Of a stretch of 33,284 nucleotides of DNA, positions 4,907-15,160 are shown piece by piece. Position 1 is the first letter of the stretch. Each line of letters starts with the position of its first letter. The translations under genes and the position numbers were made by a program. The notes beneath the pieces are model-generated. The model did no database searches. It was given only the letters and a program-made list of their open reading frames with translations, and was not told where the DNA came from. Source of the DNA: Omnitrophica bacterium RIFCSPHIGHO2_02_FULL_51_18 (GTDB taxonomy: Bacteria; Omnitrophota; Gorgyraeia; 2-02-FULL-51-18); NCBI GenBank assembly GCA_001804125.1, contig MHFI01000069.1, positions 1 through 33,284 of the forward strand, in the 5' to 3' direction.

Positions 4907-5658
4907 GAAGGCTCTTTGACGGACTTTCCGACACGGTATAAACCGCTTGTTTTGATCCAGAAATTAAAAAGGCTGCCGTTGGCCTCGCTGATCTTGACGC
5001 GCCGGAGCGCATAAGGATCGTGGCGGTCCTTGCCGCGATTGGTGGTCACGGCACCGCGATAACCTTCCCGTATCACCTGTTGCTTGATTTCCTCGGTAAA
5101 ACCGCCGGCCGGATAACTGAACAAAAACACGGGGTGCCCCAAAATCTTCTCCAGACGGTTTCTGGATTCCCGCAATTCGCGGGCGACTTCCTCCTTTTTC
5201 AGATCAGGCAGATAGGTGTGATGCGCTGTGTGGCTTCCGATTGCGATGCCGGCGCCGTCCAAAATTTTTAAATCTTCCTCGGACAACCAGCCTTCTTTAT
5301 TGAGGTTGTCCGTGATCATAAAAATAGCCGCGCGGAAGCGCATTTTCTTCAAAATCGGGAACGCATTCTTGAAATTATCCAGATTTCCGTCGTCAAACGT
5401 GATGGAGACCGTGTTTTTAGGTATCGGTTTCCCCTGCTTTATAAGGTCCAGAAGATCCTCCAGCGAAACCACGCGGTAGCGATGCACTTTCAAAAACTCC
5501 ATTTGTTTTTCGAACATTTTTGTCGAGACGTTCACCGGAGAGCTGCCGGACGTATCTCCGACATGGTGATACATCAGCACCGGTACTTCGTAATGGACCT
5601 GGGCCAAAAAAATAAGGCCGGCAGCCAACGCCGCTAACGTGAGGACTTTACGCTTCAA
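4903..5658 (-). CDS. Membrane-anchored polysaccharide deacetylase (NodB domain)
   Basis: The 251-residue product has one N-terminal hydrophobic helix (residues 5–20) that is a signal anchor or signal peptide, then a carbohydrate esterase 4 (NodB) domain. Visible motifs are VPVLMYHHV (25–33), ITFDDGN (86–92, catalytic Asp pair), SHTAHH (142–147, metal-binding His-x3-His) and YPAGGF (182–187). CE4 enzymes remove N- or O-acetyl groups from polysaccharides using a divalent metal. The position inside an LPS operon suggests a role on an envelope glycan, but the substrate is not known. I chose TTG at 5658: it starts just before the hydrophobic helix and overlaps the upstream stop as TTGA. A longer frame to 5802 would overlap the GT4–GT9 gene by about 150 bases. 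The ribosome site is weak. Confidence 0.87.
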   Translation of the reverse strand: MKRKVLTLAALAAGLIFLAQVHYEVPVLMYHHVGDTSGSSPVNVSTKMFEKQMEFLKVHRYRVVSLEDLLDLIKQGKPIPKNTVSITFDDGNLDNFKNAFPILKKMRFRAAIFMITDNLNKEGWLSEEDLKILDGAGIAIGSHTAHHTYLPDLKKEEVARELRESRNRLEKILGHPVFLFSYPAGGFTEEIKQQVIREGYRGAVTTNRGKDRHDPYALRRVKISEANGSLFNFWIKTSGLYRVGKSVKEPS

Positions 5659-7787
5659 ACCAGGCTCTGCGGTACGGGCGCTTGAGCCGCCGGACGAGCG
5701 GTTTCGACAAAATGGCAAACCGCATCCAACACCTCTTGGACGCCTATCTTTTTCATGCAAATGAGGCCGATCGGGCAATTCCTGAGATAACAGGGACTGC
5801 AATGCACTTCTTTCCAGAAAACCTGATAACGGGACGGCGGCACCAGATGCCGCTTCGGATCCGTGGGCCCGAAAATCGCCACGAGCGGCACATCGACGCT
5901 GGCCGCCACATGCATCGGCGCCGAATCGGAACTCACAAACACCTGGCAGCGCCGCACCAGCGCAATCAGCTCCGAAATGCTCGTCCGGCCGACCGCATGG
6001 ATCGGTTTGTGCTTGGTCAGGCGGAAAAGTTCATTCGTCAGCGGAATGTCCTCCGGCGTACCTGTGACCACCACACGGATATTTCTCTTGGCAAGCTCAT
6101 CACAAAGCCGCGCGAAATTTTCCACGCCCCATTGTTTGGTGGGCCAGCGAAGCGAGGAGCCGGGATTGATCCCCACCAGCACCTGGCTGGGCGCCACCCA
6201 CTGGGAGGCCATAAACTCCCGCACATGCGCCTGTTCCTCCTCATCCGCCCAGAGTTCAAGCCGTTTGTCAAAAGAGCCGATCCCCAAAAGCCGCAAGACC
6301 TTGAACTGATGCTCCAGCGGCGACACGCCGGCGCTCGAGGCGTCCGTCGTTTTTTTATTCAGCAGAAACGACCACTTGCGATTGTTCTGACCCGCGCGTG
6401 TACGGGCGCCGCACAGGAATGAAAGTGCGTGGCTCGTGCGGTTGTTCTGAAGGTCCACGACGATATCAAAATTCTCCTTGGCAAGCAGCCGCGCCGTCTT
6501 CAGGATGTTCAAAAGGCGGTTCTTGCCGGGCGTTTCCTCATAGACAATCGCGTCATCCACGTAGGGGCAGTTCCGGACAATCTTCCGGGACTTGCGGCCC
6601 ACGAGCACTGAAATCCAGGCGTCCGGAAACTTTGTCTTAAGCGCGCGGATCGAAGGGATGCTTAAAATCACGTCTCCGACCGCGCTCAATTTGATCACTA
6701 ATATTTTCTGGCGCGACACGGCTTCCTGATACGCTTCCAGCGTTTTCTGAAACATGAGATCCAGGTTAAATTCCTTCTCCACCTTCCGCCGCAGTGAAGA
6801 AGCCAGCCGGTCCGCAAGCGCCGGGTCCTTCAGGATACGGATAACCGCATCCGCCAGGATCTTTGGGTCATCGGGCGGCACCAAAAGCCCGTCCTTTTCA
6901 TCCTGGATGATATCGACGAGTCCTCCGATGCGTGTTGCCACTACCGGCACGCCGCAGGCGCCCGCCTCAATCACGACACGGCCGAATGCCTCTTCCCCCG
7001 TCGACGGCACCACCAAAACCGACATTTTCGACAATAGCTCCGGAATATCATAACGCGTACCCAGGAATTCGACCGCGTGGGAAAGACCGAGCCTTCGCAC
7101 CAGCGCTTTCAGTTCTTCCTTATATTGGGGTTTCGGCGCATCACCGATAATCTGGATCTTGAGCGGGGGCAGCACGCGTGTCACGCGCGCCATGGCCTTC
7201 AAAAAAAGCGGGTGTCCCTTGATAGGCGTAAGTCTTCCCACGATTCCGATCACCGATTCTTTCTTGCCGACGGGGTCCCCGGCCTCCTTGCGCTTAAATT
7301 CGTTCAGATTCACGCCACGGTGAATCAGACGGATTTTGTTATGGGGCACGCCGAAATCATCCCGCATCCGCCGGCCGATCACATGGCTGGCTACAATCGT
7401 GAGCTTGCCCCAACCCATCAGCGCGCTCAAGAAATGCTTACTGTAAAAACCGTGGCAGGTGGTGATGAACGGTACTTGGGTTTTCCGGCTCACCAGATAC
7501 GCCACGAGCGCCGGTACACGGCTTCGCGCATGAAGCACGTCGATATGTTCGCGCTTCACTATCTTGGCCAGCGTGTTCACGGACCGAAGGATTGCAAACG
7601 GTGTTTTTTTATGTACGGGAAGCGCGTAGTGCAAGACCCCGGCCGAGGTCAGATCTCCCACCAACGGACCCCCGGCGGACACGACGACCGATTTGTGTCC
7701 CTTTTCCCTCAGGAATTTCGCAAGGTCCACGGTGCCGCGCTCCACGCCGCCGGAATTAAGCTCCGGAAGAATCTGAAGAACGTTCAC
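5655..7787 (-). CDS. GT4–GT9 glycosyltransferase fusion
   Basis: This 710-residue protein joins two different glycosyltransferase families. Residues 1–355 form a GT4 domain: LNSGGVERGTVDLAKFL at 10–26, HRGVNLNEF near 156, GRLTPIKGHPLF near 184, and the donor-binding EEAFGRVVIEAGACGVPVVA at 265–284. Residues 361–700 form a GT9 domain: ILVIKLSAVGDVILSIPSI, NPGSSLRWP, SSDSAPMHVAA, IFGPTDPKRH and a Cys cluster C-SPC-x4-C-x5-C. GT4 enzymes use nucleotide sugars and retain the anomer; GT9 enzymes are heptosyltransferases. One protein could therefore add two different core sugars (inference). It starts with GTG in a GTGA overlap and has a strong GGAGG upstream. Confidence 0.92.
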   Translation of the reverse strand: MNVLQILPELNSGGVERGTVDLAKFLREKGHKSVVVSAGGPLVGDLTSAGVLHYALPVHKKTPFAILRSVNTLAKIVKREHIDVLHARSRVPALVAYLVSRKTQVPFITTCHGFYSKHFLSALMGWGKLTIVASHVIGRRMRDDFGVPHNKIRLIHRGVNLNEFKRKEAGDPVGKKESVIGIVGRLTPIKGHPLFLKAMARVTRVLPPLKIQIIGDAPKPQYKEELKALVRRLGLSHAVEFLGTRYDIPELLSKMSVLVVPSTGEEAFGRVVIEAGACGVPVVATRIGGLVDIIQDEKDGLLVPPDDPKILADAVIRILKDPALADRLASSLRRKVEKEFNLDLMFQKTLEAYQEAVSRQKILVIKLSAVGDVILSIPSIRALKTKFPDAWISVLVGRKSRKIVRNCPYVDDAIVYEETPGKNRLLNILKTARLLAKENFDIVVDLQNNRTSHALSFLCGARTRAGQNNRKWSFLLNKKTTDASSAGVSPLEHQFKVLRLLGIGSFDKRLELWADEEEQAHVREFMASQWVAPSQVLVGINPGSSLRWPTKQWGVENFARLCDELAKRNIRVVVTGTPEDIPLTNELFRLTKHKPIHAVGRTSISELIALVRRCQVFVSSDSAPMHVAASVDVPLVAIFGPTDPKRHLVPPSRYQVFWKEVHCSPCYLRNCPIGLICMKKIGVQEVLDAVCHFVETARPAAQAPVPQSLV

Positions 7788-9754
7788 CCCGCCACCCTCC
7801 TCAATGCTTCACCTAACATCTTCCGATCCTTTGAAACCAGAGAAGGTGAGTGACTGTTTTTTGTAAAAGACGCCGCGAGCATCTCCCGGATATTTTCCGG
7901 TTTTGCCTCTACGATCAGGTTTTCCGCCAGAAGTCCTTTTAGAAAATCCCGGTGCTTGGGTTTTAGGGGGGCGCCGTCGGAAGGCATGAAAACTAAAACC
8001 GGTTTGCCCGAGGAAATGGCTTCCGAAACCATCGACATAGATTCGCCGGAAACCACCACCCTATCGGACAAAGCCAGGATGCCGCCCACCGTATCCGGAG
8101 GATTGAATTCATTGGCAATCACCAAAAGCGGACAGCGTGCCTTATCGGCAAAAGTCCGTTTCAAGCACTCGTCGGCCCAGGCCGGCGTGCGCCGGGAGGA
8201 CGTCGCGAGCACCACGGAACCGGACTCCGCGCTGTAGAGATTAAGCTCTTGTATAAGTTTTTCGAAATAGTCTTTAGAAAATCGGAGGTGCTCCGTATCG
8301 CCGCCAACCAAAAGCCCGATGCGTTTGGAACCGTTCGACCCTTCAAGATATTTGGAGAATAACGCGCCGGATATCCTCAAATACTCCTCAGTCACAAGTG
8401 ACGGGCTCGTTCGCACCCTAAAGACGTTCTTCGCGGGCTTCAATCGGTCGTGCTTTGGCGCAATCACAAGATCAAATCGCCGGGAAGAAAACGGCGGCTT
8501 CATGATCACAACGGATTTTGCGTTGTTCTCATGTTTGACCAAAAGGTTGAGCGCCGCAAGCGACGAGCCGCAGGAAATCACGATATCCGCGTAGGTTTGA
8601 ATTATTTTTTGATAACTTTCTTTCGACAACACCCATTTTAATAGCTTGGACTTAAACGGCAGTCGTCCCCGACACAGTATTGAAAACATGAGAAAAAAAT
8701 TTTCCCGCCCAGAATTCCGGTATCGGATTTCGATAATCGTCGAACTTATATGGTCAGGCCTTAAACCTTTGGCCGCACGCTCTTCTTTAATCGCCTCCAA
8801 CACTGCCAGCGACTGGTTCGAGTGCCCTGGTTTTGCGTCGCTTAAAATGAGCACCGAGCGGTTCGGCGTAGATTTCCAGCGGCGATGCGCCCACAACCAC
8901 TGACCCGGATTTTTTCGTATCTTCTTCTCCAGGATATCCGCAAACTGCTGTAGGATAAACTTTTCCCCTTCTTCCTGATTGACACCGGCTTCCGGCATTC
9001 GAAGCGGGCCCTCCAGCTCGACTCGGTGCCCGGTCAGGCCTTCGCGAAATATGAACGCGGGGAATATCGGTGAATTTGTCCGTATCGCGAAAGTGGCTGC
9101 GCCGCTCGGCGTGGAAGACCAACGATTAAAAAACTTCACGAACGTGCCGTTTCGGCCGGCATCCTGATCGCTTAAGATCCCGACTATTTTACCTTCCTTG
9201 AGCGACCTTAAGATTTCACGGATCGGCATTCCCTTATGGATGACCCGGCTCCCCTGGGATGTCCTTAAGGAATTTAAAAATTGGTCGGAGCGCGGGTGTT
9301 TCTGAACACGCGCAAGTGCCACCATCGGGAATCCCAGCAAGGTCGAGGCCACGCTCAGAAGTTCCCAATTTCCGAAATGACCCGTCAGAAATATAATTCC
9401 CTGATGCTGCTCCAGATATTTCGTAAATTTTTCGGTGCCAAGGATCCGAACGTGCCGATCAATGTAAGATCGGTTAATGTCCGGAAACTTCAGAAGCTCC
9501 ACGATCGCCATCACCATATTCTCAAAAGATTTCTTCGAGATGGCTTCAAGCTCCCGGGGTGATTTCTCGGCTGAAAACGCCGCCCTTAAATTTTGATACG
9601 CGATGCGCCTTCGTTTGTTGACGCTATAGATCAGGCGGCCGATTCGGCACCCCACCCAAAGCGAGCACTCAAGCGGCAACGCATGAACGATCCGGCGCGC
9701 GAGCTTCGCGGCGCTAAGAATTAAGGCATCTTCGAATAAAATCTTCTTCATCAT
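7784..9754 (-). CDS. Fusion of LpxL-type lipid A acyltransferase and ELM1-family domain
   Basis: The 656-residue protein has an N-terminal acyltransferase of the LpxL/HtrB family (about 1–295). The catalytic H-x4-E is H126–E131 in LTGHFGNWELL, with GILSDQDAG (192–200) and WLWAHRRWK (287–294) also typical. LpxL enzymes add secondary acyl chains to lipid A in the inner membrane. Residues 300–656 belong to the ELM1 family (DUF1022): SDAKPGHSNQSLAVLEAI (305–322), LVGGDTEHLRFS, TSSRRTP, and a long SGESMSMVSEA stretch at 569–579. Bacterial ELM1 proteins look like GT-B glycosyltransferases but have no established activity. ATG at 9754 overlaps the end of lpxK by 41 bases, and no later start is available in the following 14 codons. 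The second ATG at 9751 is equally possible. Confidence 0.9.
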   Translation of the reverse strand: MMKKILFEDALILSAAKLARRIVHALPLECSLWVGCRIGRLIYSVNKRRRIAYQNLRAAFSAEKSPRELEAISKKSFENMVMAIVELLKFPDINRSYIDRHVRILGTEKFTKYLEQHQGIIFLTGHFGNWELLSVASTLLGFPMVALARVQKHPRSDQFLNSLRTSQGSRVIHKGMPIREILRSLKEGKIVGILSDQDAGRNGTFVKFFNRWSSTPSGAATFAIRTNSPIFPAFIFREGLTGHRVELEGPLRMPEAGVNQEEGEKFILQQFADILEKKIRKNPGQWLWAHRRWKSTPNRSVLILSDAKPGHSNQSLAVLEAIKEERAAKGLRPDHISSTIIEIRYRNSGRENFFLMFSILCRGRLPFKSKLLKWVLSKESYQKIIQTYADIVISCGSSLAALNLLVKHENNAKSVVIMKPPFSSRRFDLVIAPKHDRLKPAKNVFRVRTSPSLVTEEYLRISGALFSKYLEGSNGSKRIGLLVGGDTEHLRFSKDYFEKLIQELNLYSAESGSVVLATSSRRTPAWADECLKRTFADKARCPLLVIANEFNPPDTVGGILALSDRVVVSGESMSMVSEAISSGKPVLVFMPSDGAPLKPKHRDFLKGLLAENLIVEAKPENIREMLAASFTKNSHSPSLVSKDRKMLGEALRRVAG

Positions 9755-10694
9755 TCATCTCAAATTCGATTTGCAGCACGAAAAAGTTAAGTGCCTGGAG
9801 CTTTTCGAGCTTCTTATTTTTCAATAAGCCTTCAAGCCTGAAAAAATCCTTTTCGGTGGTCACGATGTCCTTCACGCCCAGCTCGCCGCACTGCCCCCCG
9901 AAGCGCTTGAGTTCCGATTCGGTGTAACGGTGATGGTCGTCGAAGCGCGCGGCCAGCACAATCTCCGCGCCGAGGTTTTCCACGGTTTTCTCGAAAGAAT
10001 AGGGGTCGCCGATGCCTGAAATCACGGCGACTTTTTTCCCGCGGATCTCCTGAAGCTCAAGAGTTTGGTTGTGCCGGGCGTCAAAAAGCCGCGTGGGACG
10101 GTGGCGCGCCTCGAAAATCACGGCGTTCGGCTTGATGGCCTGAAGCCGTTGGCGGATCCAGTGCACGTTCTTCGAGCCGATATCGCTTTTCGTGAGCACA
10201 AAGATATGGCCGCGCGAAAGATGCTCAATCGGCTCCCTCAACGTCCCTACCGGAATCAGCCCGCCGGGGCCGAAAGGCAGCGTCGAGTTGATGTTCACGA
10301 CGTCCAGATCACGATGAAGCCGGATATGCTGGAATCCGTCATCCAGAATCAGGACTTGCGCGCCGTATTTTTCAATGGCCTCCTTGGCGGTCTTCACACG
10401 GTCCCGGCCCACCACCACCGGCACCTGCGGCAGCTTTTTCTTAAGCTCTTTGACCTCATCGTCCCCGTAACCGCGCGTGAGGATCGCCACTTTCTTGCCG
10501 CCGGCGGCCAGCTCCCGTGACAGCATCACCGCTAAAGGCGTCTTGCCGGTGCCGCCCCAGGTGATGTTTCCGATACTGATCACGCGTGCGCCCACTCTCT
10601 GAATGCGCGAAGGAACCGCTCGGTAACCGGCCTGGCTTATCAACAGCGCCTGCTTATAAATCTTCGTCAGAAAATCTCCCAGTATTTTTTTCAC
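9714..10694 (-). CDS. lpxK: Tetraacyldisaccharide 4'-kinase
   Basis: LpxK phosphorylates the 4' position of the lipid A disaccharide, giving lipid IVA at the cytoplasmic face of the inner membrane. The 326-residue protein has the Walker A loop GNITWGGTGKT (42–52), an ILTRGYG motif near 71, and LDDGFQH (117–123), all family signatures. The first 25 residues are mildly hydrophobic, matching the usual N-terminal membrane-associated helix. The start is GTG at 10694, one base after the waaA stop, with AGAGGAG eight bases upstream. The gene ends inside the start of the acyltransferase gene. Confidence 0.95.
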   Translation of the reverse strand: MKKILGDFLTKIYKQALLISQAGYRAVPSRIQRVGARVISIGNITWGGTGKTPLAVMLSRELAAGGKKVAILTRGYGDDEVKELKKKLPQVPVVVGRDRVKTAKEAIEKYGAQVLILDDGFQHIRLHRDLDVVNINSTLPFGPGGLIPVGTLREPIEHLSRGHIFVLTKSDIGSKNVHWIRQRLQAIKPNAVIFEARHRPTRLFDARHNQTLELQEIRGKKVAVISGIGDPYSFEKTVENLGAEIVLAARFDDHHRYTESELKRFGGQCGELGVKDIVTTEKDFFRLEGLLKNKKLEKLQALNFFVLQIEFEMNDEEDFIRRCLNS

Positions 10695-10695
10695 T

Positions 10696-12003
10696 TCATG
10701 ACTCCTCTGAATTGGACAGGGTTTGTAAAAAAACTCTCACGTTTCTTTCGGTAGCGCCCTGATGGCGCAATACAAGCTCTTTTGCGTTGCGTCCAAAAAC
10801 AAGCGCCTTGTTTCTGTCCTCGACAAGCTCCAAGATCCGTTGTTCCAGATCTTTTGCATTTTTGACCTCGACACCGGCGGAACTTTTTTTGAACTCTTCG
10901 GCCATCTGGCTGAAATTATTCATAAAAGGGCCGAACAAAACGGGTTTTTCAAAAAAAGCGGGTTCGACAAGGTTGTGCCCGCCGTTAGGCACGAGGCTTC
11001 CTCCCACAAACACGGCATCGGCCAGGCGATAAAAATCAGCGAGCGCCCCCATCGAATCCAGCAAAAAAACCGGGCCGGGACCGGGTTCGGGCGAATGGCC
11101 CGCACGGCCTCGTATCTTGGAGGTCCTTTGAAGCTCAAGGCCTTTTTGGGAAGCCAGGCGCAGGATTGAGCCGATCCGGTCGAGGTGTCTCGGCGCAACG
11201 AGAAGCCGGAAGCTGGCATGTTTGACGCAAAGCGATCGGTACACCTCCAAAAGAATCTCCTCCTCGCCTTTGTGCGTGCTTCCCGCAACCAGAAGAAAGA
11301 CATCCGGGCCCCTCAATCGTCCTTCGACGGCCTTCACGAGGCCCTCGCCCGAAAAGTTCGGCTGCCAGTCAAATTTCATGTTTCCAGTCACCGAAACGAT
11401 CCCCGGACTCGCGCCCAATTCGATAAAACGCCGTTTCATCAAATCATCCTGCGCACAGATGGCCTTAAGCTCGTTGAGAAACGGCGCAATAAAAAACCTT
11501 GCCTTTTTATATTTGAAAATGGCCTTGTCCGAAATGCGCCCGTTCACAATAAATGCCGGTATCTTTCTTTTGGAAAGCTCAGATAAAAGATTCGGCCAAA
11601 TCTCGGTTTCAATCAAGACAAGCGCCGAAGGGTGAACACCCGCTAAAAAGCGCCGGACACTGAATCCGAAATCCACGGGAAAATAAAGCACGGAGTCTTC
11701 GCCGGACTTAAGGCCCAACGCCATCTCCCGACCGGCAACGGTCGTCGTGGTGACAACGAACCTCGCCGCAGGAAACCTCTTTTTAAGGGCCGCCACCAGC
11801 CGAAACGCCTGCACCACCTCTCCGACGGATACGCCGTGCACCCAAAAAACCTGTTTGCCTTCAAGCCGTTTCCGGATTTCTTCCGGCACCACACCAAAAC
11901 GGGAAGCCAACCCCCGTTTATGTTTACCTTTCAACAAAAAAACCGGTAAATAAAAAAGCGAAAAGGCAAAAAAACAAATGTTGTATATTATTCGAATAAA
12001 CAT
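10696..12003 (-). CDS. waaA: Kdo transferase (3-deoxy-D-manno-octulosonic acid transferase)
   Basis: WaaA (KdtA) adds Kdo from CMP-Kdo to lipid IVA, the first step of LPS core assembly. The 435-residue length is normal. An N-terminal membrane helix (about 4–24) anchors it to the inner membrane. WVHGVSVGEVVQA (54–66) contains the catalytic Glu at 62. Further family motifs are VLIETEIWPNL, AGSTHKGEEE and VFVGGSLVPNGGHNLVEPA. Whether it adds one or more Kdo units cannot be told from sequence. It leads the envelope block; the 36-base gap to xerC shows no clear promoter or strong ribosome site. Confidence 0.95.
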   Translation of the reverse strand: MFIRIIYNICFFAFSLFYLPVFLLKGKHKRGLASRFGVVPEEIRKRLEGKQVFWVHGVSVGEVVQAFRLVAALKKRFPAARFVVTTTTVAGREMALGLKSGEDSVLYFPVDFGFSVRRFLAGVHPSALVLIETEIWPNLLSELSKRKIPAFIVNGRISDKAIFKYKKARFFIAPFLNELKAICAQDDLMKRRFIELGASPGIVSVTGNMKFDWQPNFSGEGLVKAVEGRLRGPDVFLLVAGSTHKGEEEILLEVYRSLCVKHASFRLLVAPRHLDRIGSILRLASQKGLELQRTSKIRGRAGHSPEPGPGPVFLLDSMGALADFYRLADAVFVGGSLVPNGGHNLVEPAFFEKPVLFGPFMNNFSQMAEEFKKSSAGVEVKNAKDLEQRILELVEDRNKALVFGRNAKELVLRHQGATERNVRVFLQTLSNSEES

Positions 12004-12039: not shown

Positions 12040-12936
12040 TTAAGCCCTGGGATGTGCTTTGTCATAAACGTCTTTCAAGCGCTGCGTGGAAACATGCGTG
12101 TAAATCTGCGTGGTCGACAGGTTCTCGTGGCCTAAAAGCTCCTGCACGGACCTTAAATCCGCGCCGCGGTTCAGAAGGTGCGTCGCAAATGAATGGCGAA
12201 GCGTGTGCGGCGAGACTCCTTCCTTGCGGCAGGTGAGTCCGATGTACTTCTCCAGAAGCCGGCATATGCTGCGCGGTGTCAAACGTGAGCCTTGTTGATT
12301 CGGTGAATGATTCAGAAAAAGCGCTTTTTCTTGATTTTTTTCCTTCTTCTCTCTGAGCTCCAGGTAGCGGCGGATGCTTAAAATGGCCTTGTCCCCGATC
12401 GGGCAAAGCCGCTCCTTGCGGCCTTTTCCGAGCACGCGGCAAACACCGCCGATAAAATCGATGCCGTCGGCGTTGAGCTGGACAAGCTCCGAGACCCGCA
12501 GGCCTGTCGAATAAAGCGTTTCAAGAATCGCCTTGTCGCGACGGCCCGAGAGGTCGTCTTCCGGCGAATTCAAAAGCGCGCTCATTTCATTCTCATCGAG
12601 CACCATCGGAAGCCGTTTCTCAAGCTTAGGCGTTCTTAAGAAGCTCAGCGGGCTCTTCTTTAAGTAGCCCTCGCGCACGAGAAACCTGAAATACGTGCGA
12701 AGCGCGGCCACGCGACGGGCAACCGTTTTCTTTGAAAGTTCACGGTCTTTTAAAGCGGCCAGGTATCTCCTTAAAAGAAGCACGTCGACATCCTCAAGCG
12801 CCGTGCTTCCGATAAAGCCGCGAAATTCGTGCAAGTCATGCGTGTAACCCGTGAGCGTGTGCGGGGAGTAATTCTTCTCTGCCTTAAGATAATTCAAAAA
12901 CTTTACGGTCGTGGCATCCATTACTGAGTTATCCAT
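12040..12936 (-). CDS. xerC: Tyrosine recombinase XerC/XerD
   Basis: Xer recombinases resolve chromosome dimers at dif sites before cell division. The 298-residue protein has the usual N-terminal SAM-like core-binding domain (about 7–90) and a C-terminal catalytic domain. The full catalytic set is visible: R147 (TGLRVSELV), K171 (GKGRKERL), H244 and R247 (SPHTLRHSFATHLL), H270 (LLGHENLSTTQIY) and nucleophile Y279. XerC and XerD cannot be separated safely by eye; the symbol xerC follows the common dprA–topA–xerC gene order. ATG at 12936 overlaps the end of topA by 8 bases. Confidence 0.93.
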   Translation of the reverse strand: MDNSVMDATTVKFLNYLKAEKNYSPHTLTGYTHDLHEFRGFIGSTALEDVDVLLLRRYLAALKDRELSKKTVARRVAALRTYFRFLVREGYLKKSPLSFLRTPKLEKRLPMVLDENEMSALLNSPEDDLSGRRDKAILETLYSTGLRVSELVQLNADGIDFIGGVCRVLGKGRKERLCPIGDKAILSIRRYLELREKKEKNQEKALFLNHSPNQQGSRLTPRSICRLLEKYIGLTCRKEGVSPHTLRHSFATHLLNRGADLRSVQELLGHENLSTTQIYTHVSTQRLKDVYDKAHPRA

Positions 12937-15160
12937 AAATTTCCGGATCCTTTTCTTCCAAAGTTTTTAAGTCTACCGCCGGCTCGCCGGCCTTCGGCAG
13001 GCGATTGGCGATAAACGTGCACTCAGGATACTTCGTACACCCGTAAAAAGGCCGGCCGCGGCCCGAACGCGCGCGGCGTGCCACGAGCTTCCCTTTGCCG
13101 CACTGCGGGCAAACGGCGTCCGTCGGAATCGATTTCGCGTTCTTGCACTCCGGCCAGCCCGAACAACTCATAAATCGCCCGCGGCGGCCCCATTTAATCA
13201 CCATCGGCTTGCCGCATGTCTCGCAAATTTCGTCGGTGGGCTCAGCCTCTTTCTTTACGGTTTGCATCTGGACTTTCGCCAGCTCCATCTGGCCGCTGAA
13301 CACCCCATAAAACTCCCTCACAACGTTCACCCATTCATTCCGGCCCTCTTCCACCTCGTCAAGCTGTTCCTCCATTCTCGCCGTGAATTCAAAATCCAGG
13401 ATTTTTGAGAAATGCTTCACCAAAAGGTCCGTGACAAGCATTCCAAGCTCCGTAGGCACGAGGCTTCCTCCCTCACGCCTTATGTAGTCACGTTCGGTCA
13501 GCGTCTGGATCGTCGGCGCGTATGTGGAAGGGCGGCCGATACCCAGTTCTTCCAGCGCTTTCACCAGGGAAGCATCCGTGAATCTGGCCGAAGGTTTCGT
13601 AAAATGCTGCTCGTGCTTCAGGTCCAGAAGCGTCAGCATTTCTCCGGCCTCGAGATTCGGCAGCGGATTGTCCTGCTCCTCTTCCCTGCCCTGAACGACC
13701 AGGCAGCCGGGAAACTCCAACCGGCTGCCGCTGGCGCGGAAAAGATATTCACCGGCCGCGATGTCCGCCGTATCCTGCGCGACGATCGCGGGCGTCATCT
13801 GGCTGGAAACCGTCTGGCGCCAGATAATCGAGTAAAGCTTAAACTGGTCCGGCGACAGGTATTGCTCGATGTCCTTCGGATGCCGGAACACGGACGTCGG
13901 GCGGATCGCCTCATGCGCGGCCTGGGCGTCTTTTCTGGACTTGTAAACGTTCGGCTTCTCCGGCAGGTAACTTTTACCGTATTTCTTCAAGATAAGCCCG
14001 CGTGTTTCTTCGATGGCCACTCCCGACAGGCGGACCGAGTCGGTCCGCATGTAGGTGATGAGGCCTACACTCCCCTCGTCGCCTATTTCGACGCCTTCGT
14101 ACAGCGTCTGGGCGACCCGCATCGTCTTCGAGGCCGGGAACTTAAGAAGATTGTAGGCGGCCTGCTGGAGCTTGCTGGTCGTAAACGGCGGATAAGGGTT
14201 CCTCCTTTTCTTTTGTTTCTTGACCTCGCGGACAACAAAAGGAAGCTGTTTTATGTTTTCGACAGCGGAAGACGCCGCTTGTCCGTCCTTCATCTCAATC
14301 TTCTTATCGTCTATCTTCTCCAATCGGGCAATGAACGGCTTGGGGGCGCCCTTCTGTTTTTTAAGCTCGGCCTCAATCGTCCAGTATTCTTCGGGAACAA
14401 ACGCTCTGATCTTTCGTTCCTGGTCCACCACCAGACGCAGCGCCACGGATTGCACGCGCCCCGCCGAGAGGCCGCGGCCGACTTTCTGCCAGAGAAGAGG
14501 ACTCAAAGAATAGCCCACGATACGGTCCAGTACGCGGCGCGCCTGCTGGGCCCCCACGAGATTCATGTCAATATCCGAGGGATGATTGAACGCCTCCAAC
14601 ACCGCCTCTTTTGTGATTTCATTAAACACGACGCGCGCGACTTTCTTGCCGGCCCCAAGCTGGTTCTTCAAATGCCAGCTGATGGCCTCGCCTTCACGGT
14701 CAGGGTCGCAGGCGAGGTATATCTCGTTCTTGCCCTTGGCTTTTTTCTTAAGCTCGGCGAGAATCTTCTTTCGGTCTTTTGCGACGATGTACTGCGGCTC
14801 AAAATTATGCTCAAGGTCAATGCCCATCTTGCTCTTCGGAAGGTCCACCACATGCCCCATGGAAGCGGCCACTTCGTAACGATCACCCAAATACTTGTTG
14901 ATCGTCTTGCACTTCGCGGGAGATTCCACGATCACAAGCGCCCCACCCCCTGATTTGGCGCCGCCGCCGACAAAATGAACAATCTCCACCTCATCTGCTT
15001 CTTTCAACCGCACCTGGGCCAGGCGCTCTTTTGGAATAATTTCCATGTTGTGCTCGATAACCACTTTTTCCTTCGGAACGTCCAGCTCCAGAAGAAGCCC
15101 GGCGAGCGTCAGCGGACCCTTGAGCGTTTTTTTTGCTCCGTTCAACTGAATCGTAATCAT
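12929..15160 (-). CDS. topA: ThiS sulfur-carrier domain fused to DNA topoisomerase I
   Basis: This 743-residue protein begins with a complete ThiS domain (1–67): MITIQLNGAKK, EIIPKERLAQV and a C-terminal EIVHFVGGG, the exact tail type of Bacillus ThiS. A short linker (AKSGGG) leads into type IA topoisomerase I from residue 75 (LVIVESPAKCKTI). DPDREGEA (152–159) is the Toprim metal site, Y370 in GLITYMRTDS is the catalytic tyrosine, and two Cys4 zinc ribbons lie at 646–672 and 684–714. TopA relaxes negative supercoils. ThiS normally needs a free C-terminal glycine to carry sulfur for thiazole synthesis, which this fusion blocks unless cleaved. ATG at 15160 overlaps dprA as ATGA. An internal GTG at 14935 behind a G-rich run could give TopA alone. 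Confidence 0.95.
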   Translation of the reverse strand: MITIQLNGAKKTLKGPLTLAGLLLELDVPKEKVVIEHNMEIIPKERLAQVRLKEADEVEIVHFVGGGAKSGGGALVIVESPAKCKTINKYLGDRYEVAASMGHVVDLPKSKMGIDLEHNFEPQYIVAKDRKKILAELKKKAKGKNEIYLACDPDREGEAISWHLKNQLGAGKKVARVVFNEITKEAVLEAFNHPSDIDMNLVGAQQARRVLDRIVGYSLSPLLWQKVGRGLSAGRVQSVALRLVVDQERKIRAFVPEEYWTIEAELKKQKGAPKPFIARLEKIDDKKIEMKDGQAASSAVENIKQLPFVVREVKKQKKRRNPYPPFTTSKLQQAAYNLLKFPASKTMRVAQTLYEGVEIGDEGSVGLITYMRTDSVRLSGVAIEETRGLILKKYGKSYLPEKPNVYKSRKDAQAAHEAIRPTSVFRHPKDIEQYLSPDQFKLYSIIWRQTVSSQMTPAIVAQDTADIAAGEYLFRASGSRLEFPGCLVVQGREEEQDNPLPNLEAGEMLTLLDLKHEQHFTKPSARFTDASLVKALEELGIGRPSTYAPTIQTLTERDYIRREGGSLVPTELGMLVTDLLVKHFSKILDFEFTARMEEQLDEVEEGRNEWVNVVREFYGVFSGQMELAKVQMQTVKKEAEPTDEICETCGKPMVIKWGRRGRFMSCSGWPECKNAKSIPTDAVCPQCGKGKLVARRARSGRGRPFYGCTKYPECTFIANRLPKAGEPAVDLKTLEEKDPEIYG

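Follow-up and report, generated by a model that had tools for sequence, protein, structure and literature searches.

Domain architecture of the LpxL::ELM1 gene

The 33,284-nucleotide contig MHFI01000069.1 of Omnitrophica bacterium RIFCSPHIGHO2_02_FULL_51_18 (hereafter the window; one contig of a 1.53-Mb draft genome, G000) carries a gene in which a late lipid A acyltransferase domain of the LpxL type is joined to an ELM1 domain. Both domain types are already known, as is one characterized ELM1 member, KdoT of Acinetobacter baumannii, which transfers 3-deoxy-D-manno-oct-2-ulosonic acid (Kdo); what is new is that the fusion extends over a whole phylum and that its partner can be swapped, for neither of which an earlier description was found in the literature searched. 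The open reading frame (ORF) runs in frame over its full length with zero internal stops. Its features are as follows, with invariance scored on an alignment of 40 fusions.

7784–9754 (−): LpxL-like::ELM1 fusion gene, 656 residues (ORF, Pfam, AlphaFold)
8873–9700 (−): late lipid A acyltransferase domain, residues 19–294 (PF03279, 6.7e-54; fold like LpxM 5knk and PatA)
9362–9379 (−): HX4E catalytic motif, H126–E131 (both residues invariant)
7901–8830 (−): ELM1 domain (glycosyltransferase fold GT-B, KdoT-related), residues 309–618 (PF06258, 1.1e-51; MurG best PDB match, 7.5e-10)
8810–8842 (−): SDAKPGHSNQS motif, D306/H311 corresponding to KdoT D8/H13 (D306, G310, H311, Q314 invariant)
8447–8452 (−): H435–D436, corresponding to KdoT H109–D110 (invariant)
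8186–8197 (−): SRRT, residues 520–523, R521/R522 corresponding to KdoT R179/R180 (all four invariant)
8018–8050 (−): SGESMSMVSEA of the C-terminal Rossmann domain, residues 569–579 (S572 and M575 invariant, E578 nearly so)

The initial annotation had described this gene as an H-x4-E acyltransferase followed by ELM1 motifs, which is borne out: Lip_A_acyltrans (PF03279) scores 183.5 bits against a gathering cut-off of 22.3, covering profile positions 22–294 of 295, Mito_fiss_Elm1 (PF06258) scores 176.3 bits against 27, and HFGNWE, SDAKPGHSNQS, TSSRRTP, and SGESMSMVSEA begin at residues 126, 305, 518, and 569. A linker of only about 5–10 residues separates the domains, and both halves are alike in codon-position GC. 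An assembly or read-through artefact is ruled out as the source because the same fusion is found in dozens of genomes. The acyltransferase half shares its fold, the HX4E motif, and a family score well above the Pfam cut-off with LpxL, LpxM, and LpxP (PF03279) but differs from them in carrying a C-terminal glycosyltransferase domain and in staying below every NCBIfam LpxL/LpxM equivalog cut-off (best NF006270, 169.4 vs. 248 bits). We therefore term it LpxL-like and leave the acylation position and chain unassigned.

Gene order and distribution across Omnitrophota

The gene lies in a tightly packed operon on the minus strand, with the following neighbors.

9714–10694 (−): lpxK, tetraacyldisaccharide 4′-kinase (PF02606, 3.7e-69)
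10696–12003 (−): kdtA/waaA, Kdo transferase (PF04413, 3e-56; synteny)
5655–7787 (−): GT4::GT9 fusion, the next downstream gene phylum-wide (profile matches and synteny)

The 5′ end of the fusion gene overlaps the 3′ end of the lpxK ORF, and its 3′ end meets the start of the GT4::GT9 gene. Upstream follow lpxK, kdtA, xerC, and topA; downstream, GT4::GT9 is followed by more genes of the GT9 heptosyltransferase family, so the gene does sit between lpxK and the core glycosyltransferases as initially annotated. The order topA-xerC-kdtA-lpxK-LpxL::ELM1-GT4::GT9 is conserved in most of the Omnitrophota neighborhoods inspected.

Of the 285 Omnitrophota genomes, 264 have ELM1, almost always as an LpxL::ELM1 fusion, and the open frames span ~640–720 residues in nearly every case; 42 other such fusion ORFs were read directly, plus further genomes. 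The fusion is present almost everywhere that the kdtA locus is assembled. Twenty ELM1-negative genomes were listed. Twelve of them possess kdtA, but their contigs break off inside this gene or soon behind it, inside lpxK, or inside the lpxL portion, so that the apparent absence is explained by assembly gaps; true loss in kdtA-positive Omnitrophota is thus rejected for the cases seen (12/12 run off the contig end). The remaining eight are without kdtA and without lpxK. For seven of these a missing contig could account for the joint absence of all three genes. The eighth, G079 (2 contigs), retains LpxC and stand-alone late acyltransferases and has no kdtA, lpxK, ELM1, or kdsB over cut-off, a pattern in line with a role of ELM1 in the Kdo/core step. 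Separately, at the end of contig G029:C9 (L151:3-1277 (−)) a stretch resembling a sequencing adapter, translated as ...LSLIHISE, seemingly cuts the fusion off.

Predicted structure

An AlphaFold2 model of the full fusion, built from the 40-row alignment, reached a predicted local distance difference test score (pLDDT) of 92.3 and a predicted template modeling score of 0.89. In Foldseek its first half matched LpxM (5knk) and PatA, and its second half matched GT-B enzymes with MurG on top. Modeled alone (pLDDT 88.9), the ELM1 domain shows two Rossmann-like domains in a GT-B fold and matches MurG (7.5e-10), MGD1, and UDP-GlcNAc 2-epimerases (WecB). The likeness of ELM1 to GT-B enzymes, initially proposed from sequence, is thereby seen in the predicted fold, and Mito_fiss_Elm1 has been placed in Pfam clan CL0113 (PMC4172580). 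A sequence search found no solved structure of an ELM1-family protein. WaaA/KdtA (GT30), encoded two genes upstream, is also a GT-B enzyme and likely uses the same donor; it is absent among the 50 listed Foldseek matches of the ELM1 domain, and homology between the two is unsupported (hhalign probability 19%). By profile comparison, and at the sensitivity used, ELM1 and WaaA are thus judged to be separate families.

Comparison with KdoT

That bacterial ELM1 proteins are without a proven activity, as the initial annotation had it, is outdated. The A. baumannii protein A1S_2903, which had carried the annotation of an ELM1-like fission protein, has been renamed KdoT (PMC12856342, December 2025; earlier PMC10936431): the purified protein converts Kdo2-lipid IVA to Kdo3-lipid IVA in vitro with cytidine monophosphate (CMP)-Kdo by adding KdoIII, is inactive on Kdo-free lipid IVA, and prefers tetra-acylated Kdo2-lipid IVA over hexa-acylated lipid A as acceptor (PMC12856342). 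Full activity requires R180 of the SRRT motif, and the arginines were modeled close to the Kdo carboxylate (PMC12856342). The same protein, as GtrOC1, is listed as a Mito_fiss_Elm1 glycosyltransferase of the A. baumannii outer-core locus, between ilvE and aspS (PMC4172580).

KdoT shares with the fused domain its Pfam family, the GT-B fold, the DxxxxH...HD...SRRT pattern, and a place in a lipopolysaccharide (LPS) core locus. Its D8, H13, H109, D110, R179, and R180 correspond to D306, H311, H435, D436, R521, and R522, an equivalence that rests on the motif and on hhalign to KdoT-like gammaproteobacterial proteins (6.3e-42 over the whole domain) rather than on the KdoT sequence itself. KdoT differs in being a stand-alone protein of ~35 kDa of the gammaproteobacterial type, whereas the fused domain belongs to a clade of its own and has an acyltransferase attached. 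The spacing from H to R is 70 in KdoT (H109–R179), most commonly 70 in the gammaproteobacterial SDGKPGH clade (21/33), 84 in alphaproteobacteria, and mostly 85–88 in the fusions; that KdoT belongs to the gammaproteobacterial clade was deduced from its published residue numbers, by motif, spacing, and locus.

One alternative is a catalytically dead ELM1 domain that serves as a scaffold or adaptor. Plant ELM1 works in mitochondrial fission as a recruitment factor for DRP3A, which provides a precedent. KdoT and GnaT of A. baumannii are, moreover, mutually dependent in vivo (PMC12856342, PMC10936431). Since the donor-site and cleft residues are invariant phylum-wide and KdoT is enzymatic in vitro, we regard a dead domain as very improbable.

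Phylogeny and genomic context of ELM1

The ELM1 tree splits deeply into three: a gammaproteobacterial SDGKPGH group, the Omnitrophota, and an alphaproteobacterial/mixed group that includes three stray Omnitrophota copies. Membership of the fused domains in the gammaproteobacterial KdoT clade is rejected by the tree, in which the two are separate deep clades. The survey of stand-alone homologues suggested with the initial annotation gave a divided answer. In the gammaproteobacterial SDGKPGH clade the loci are LPS core-like, with a GT4 gene nearby in 26/33 (mostly the next gene), ilvE in 22/33, and GT9 and O-antigen ligase genes as other neighbors; those with ilvE and GT4 resemble the A. baumannii core locus. 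Alphaproteobacterial ELM1 genes lie mostly elsewhere: across 80 mostly alphaproteobacterial loci the common neighbors are AsnC, a 2-oxoglutarate-Fe(II) oxygenase, a 640-residue protein, GreA, carB, and a redox enzyme. The initial annotation had named, as what would speak against its reading, homologues lying mostly outside LPS loci together with the lack of a nucleotide-sugar site; the first of these applies, in the alphaproteobacterial clade only. LPS genes are often dispersed in genomes. For this reason, and because a Rickettsia homologue of KdoT rescues the core in an A. baumannii mutant (PMC12856342), a non-LPS location does not exclude a KdoT-type function. Alphaproteobacterial and plant ELM1 share the Pfam family and SRRT with the fused domain (profile match to the alphaproteobacterial set 2.2e-53), and the alphaproteobacterial proteins differ in having GM for GH in the N-terminal motif.

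Three further observations concern these homologues. The oxygenase and the ~640-residue protein, which has no Pfam or NCBIfam match, recur near alphaproteobacterial ELM1 in 34–36 of the 80 loci (e.g. L057:3901-5829, L060:2624-3298) and form a conserved cluster with it. The three Omnitrophota with alphaproteobacterial-type ELM1 (L034–L036, L134–L136), a likely case of horizontal transfer, have an inward-rectifier K+ channel-like gene two genes off. Extra stand-alone ELM1 genes away from the kdtA locus occur in G020 and G247 (L133:10071-11171 (−), L138:10152-11321 (+), L255:7349-8608 (−)), and in the L138 copy SLRT replaces SRRT.

Partner swap and other fusions in the block

Three genomes from two families (G002, G073, G280) encode LpxK::ELM1 instead of LpxL::ELM1 (714–726 residues, PF02606 and PF06258). 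These proteins nest within the LpxL-fused ELM1 clade; two independent origins are unsupported, as a single origin is not rejected (approximately unbiased test, p 0.53). The swap means that ELM1 is partnered by the two enzymes that, in the known pathway, immediately flank Kdo transfer, one acting before it and one after.

It is conceivable, though rather unlikely, that the fusion arose neutrally from the tight overlap of operon genes, with both domains active and nothing gained, which would be compatible with the other readings and leave the activities unchanged. The block is prone to fusion: KdtA::LpxK proteins of 811 and 796 residues occur in G126 and G040 (L249:1623-4055 (−) and L250:2189-4576 (+)) alongside LpxK::ELM1, GT4::GT9 is found throughout, and elsewhere in G029 another acyltransferase forms one protein with a family-2 glycosyltransferase (L152:4813-6441 (+); Lip_A_acyltrans 95–301, Glycos_transf_2 317–471). 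Consecutive genes thus fuse readily here, which weakens the case for an advantage of the LpxL fusion and leaves the pathway assignment unaffected. LpxL::ELM1 has, however, been kept over dozens of families, whereas KdtA::LpxK and LpxK::ELM1 are sporadic.

A proposed role in Kdo-lipid A assembly

The fusion is phylum-wide, lies in the kdtA-lpxK-core block, and has a GT-B fold; it very probably acts on lipid A or the inner core, as the initial annotation had suggested for ELM1. On balance we favor the view that the fusion is a bifunctional Kdo transferase/late acyltransferase with Kdo as donor; the donor is much less certain than the prediction that ELM1 is active as some type of inner-core glycosyltransferase. 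In the scheme that we infer, LpxK and KdtA would make Kdo-lipid IVA as the substrate of a membrane-associated fusion enzyme. Its ELM1 domain, an inverting GT-B enzyme of the KdoT type, would move a second or third Kdo from CMP-Kdo onto this acceptor, with the SRRT arginines gripping the donor carboxylate, and the LpxL-like domain would put a secondary acyl chain on the same molecule. Kdo transfer and acylation would be consecutive, possibly coupled or channeled, and two consecutive membrane-building steps would probably be done by one molecule. The chances are about even that, throughout the phylum, KdtA and an unrelated ELM1-family transferase divide Kdo transfer between them, the latter being covalently attached to the late acyltransferase (LpxK in some lineages). 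A single polypeptide would then couple sugar addition to lipid A acylation or phosphorylation.

Several points weigh against Kdo as the donor. In other bacteria KdtA alone adds two or more Kdo residues. The fused ELM1 domains form a deep clade of their own outside the KdoT-type clade, so their donor could differ from Kdo. The gammaproteobacterial genomes G494 and G370 have 5–6 ELM1-family genes each, so more than one sugar is probably handled within the family, with other donors in other polysaccharide loci. Single alanine mutants of KdoT D8, H13, H109, and D110 are still active (PMC12856342), so the conservation of these four is no proof of Kdo specificity.

ELM1 might instead use another donor (e.g. 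a hexosamine, hexuronic acid, or heptose) and add the first non-Kdo sugar of the inner core. The separate clade and the multiple copies would fit such an activity, as would the UDP-sugar enzymes among the nearest solved folds of ELM1 and the GT4::GT9 gene next in line. Yet every ELM1 protein with tested activity uses CMP-Kdo (PMC12856342), kdsB and kdtA are present in the window's genome and in 20/20 ELM1-positive genomes checked, and the KdoT arginines modeled by the Kdo carboxylate are invariant in the fusions, which makes another donor unlikely.

The LpxL fusion, the LpxK swap, and the shared active-site residues link ELM1 to Kdo-lipid A assembly without recourse to the sole experimental case, in Acinetobacter, and would mean that an uncultured phylum also has KdoT-type chemistry. 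Bacterial ELM1 still carries a "mitochondrial fission" annotation, and these findings speak for relabeling its members as glycosyltransferases. As a self-contained candidate bifunctional enzyme the fusion is open to assay. If Kdo is indeed its donor, the split KdoT pathway would be old and widespread rather than an Acinetobacter peculiarity.

Additional observation on the topA gene

DNA topoisomerase I, encoded upstream at 12929–15160 (−) of the window, has an N-terminal ThiS-like sulfur-carrier domain (residues 4–67; TIGR01683, 4e-17) that retains the GG motif in an internal position (FVGGG). The ThiS-like N-terminus is also fused to TopA in L114, L115, L116, L120, L131, and L137, whereas in L124 it stands as an ORF by itself.

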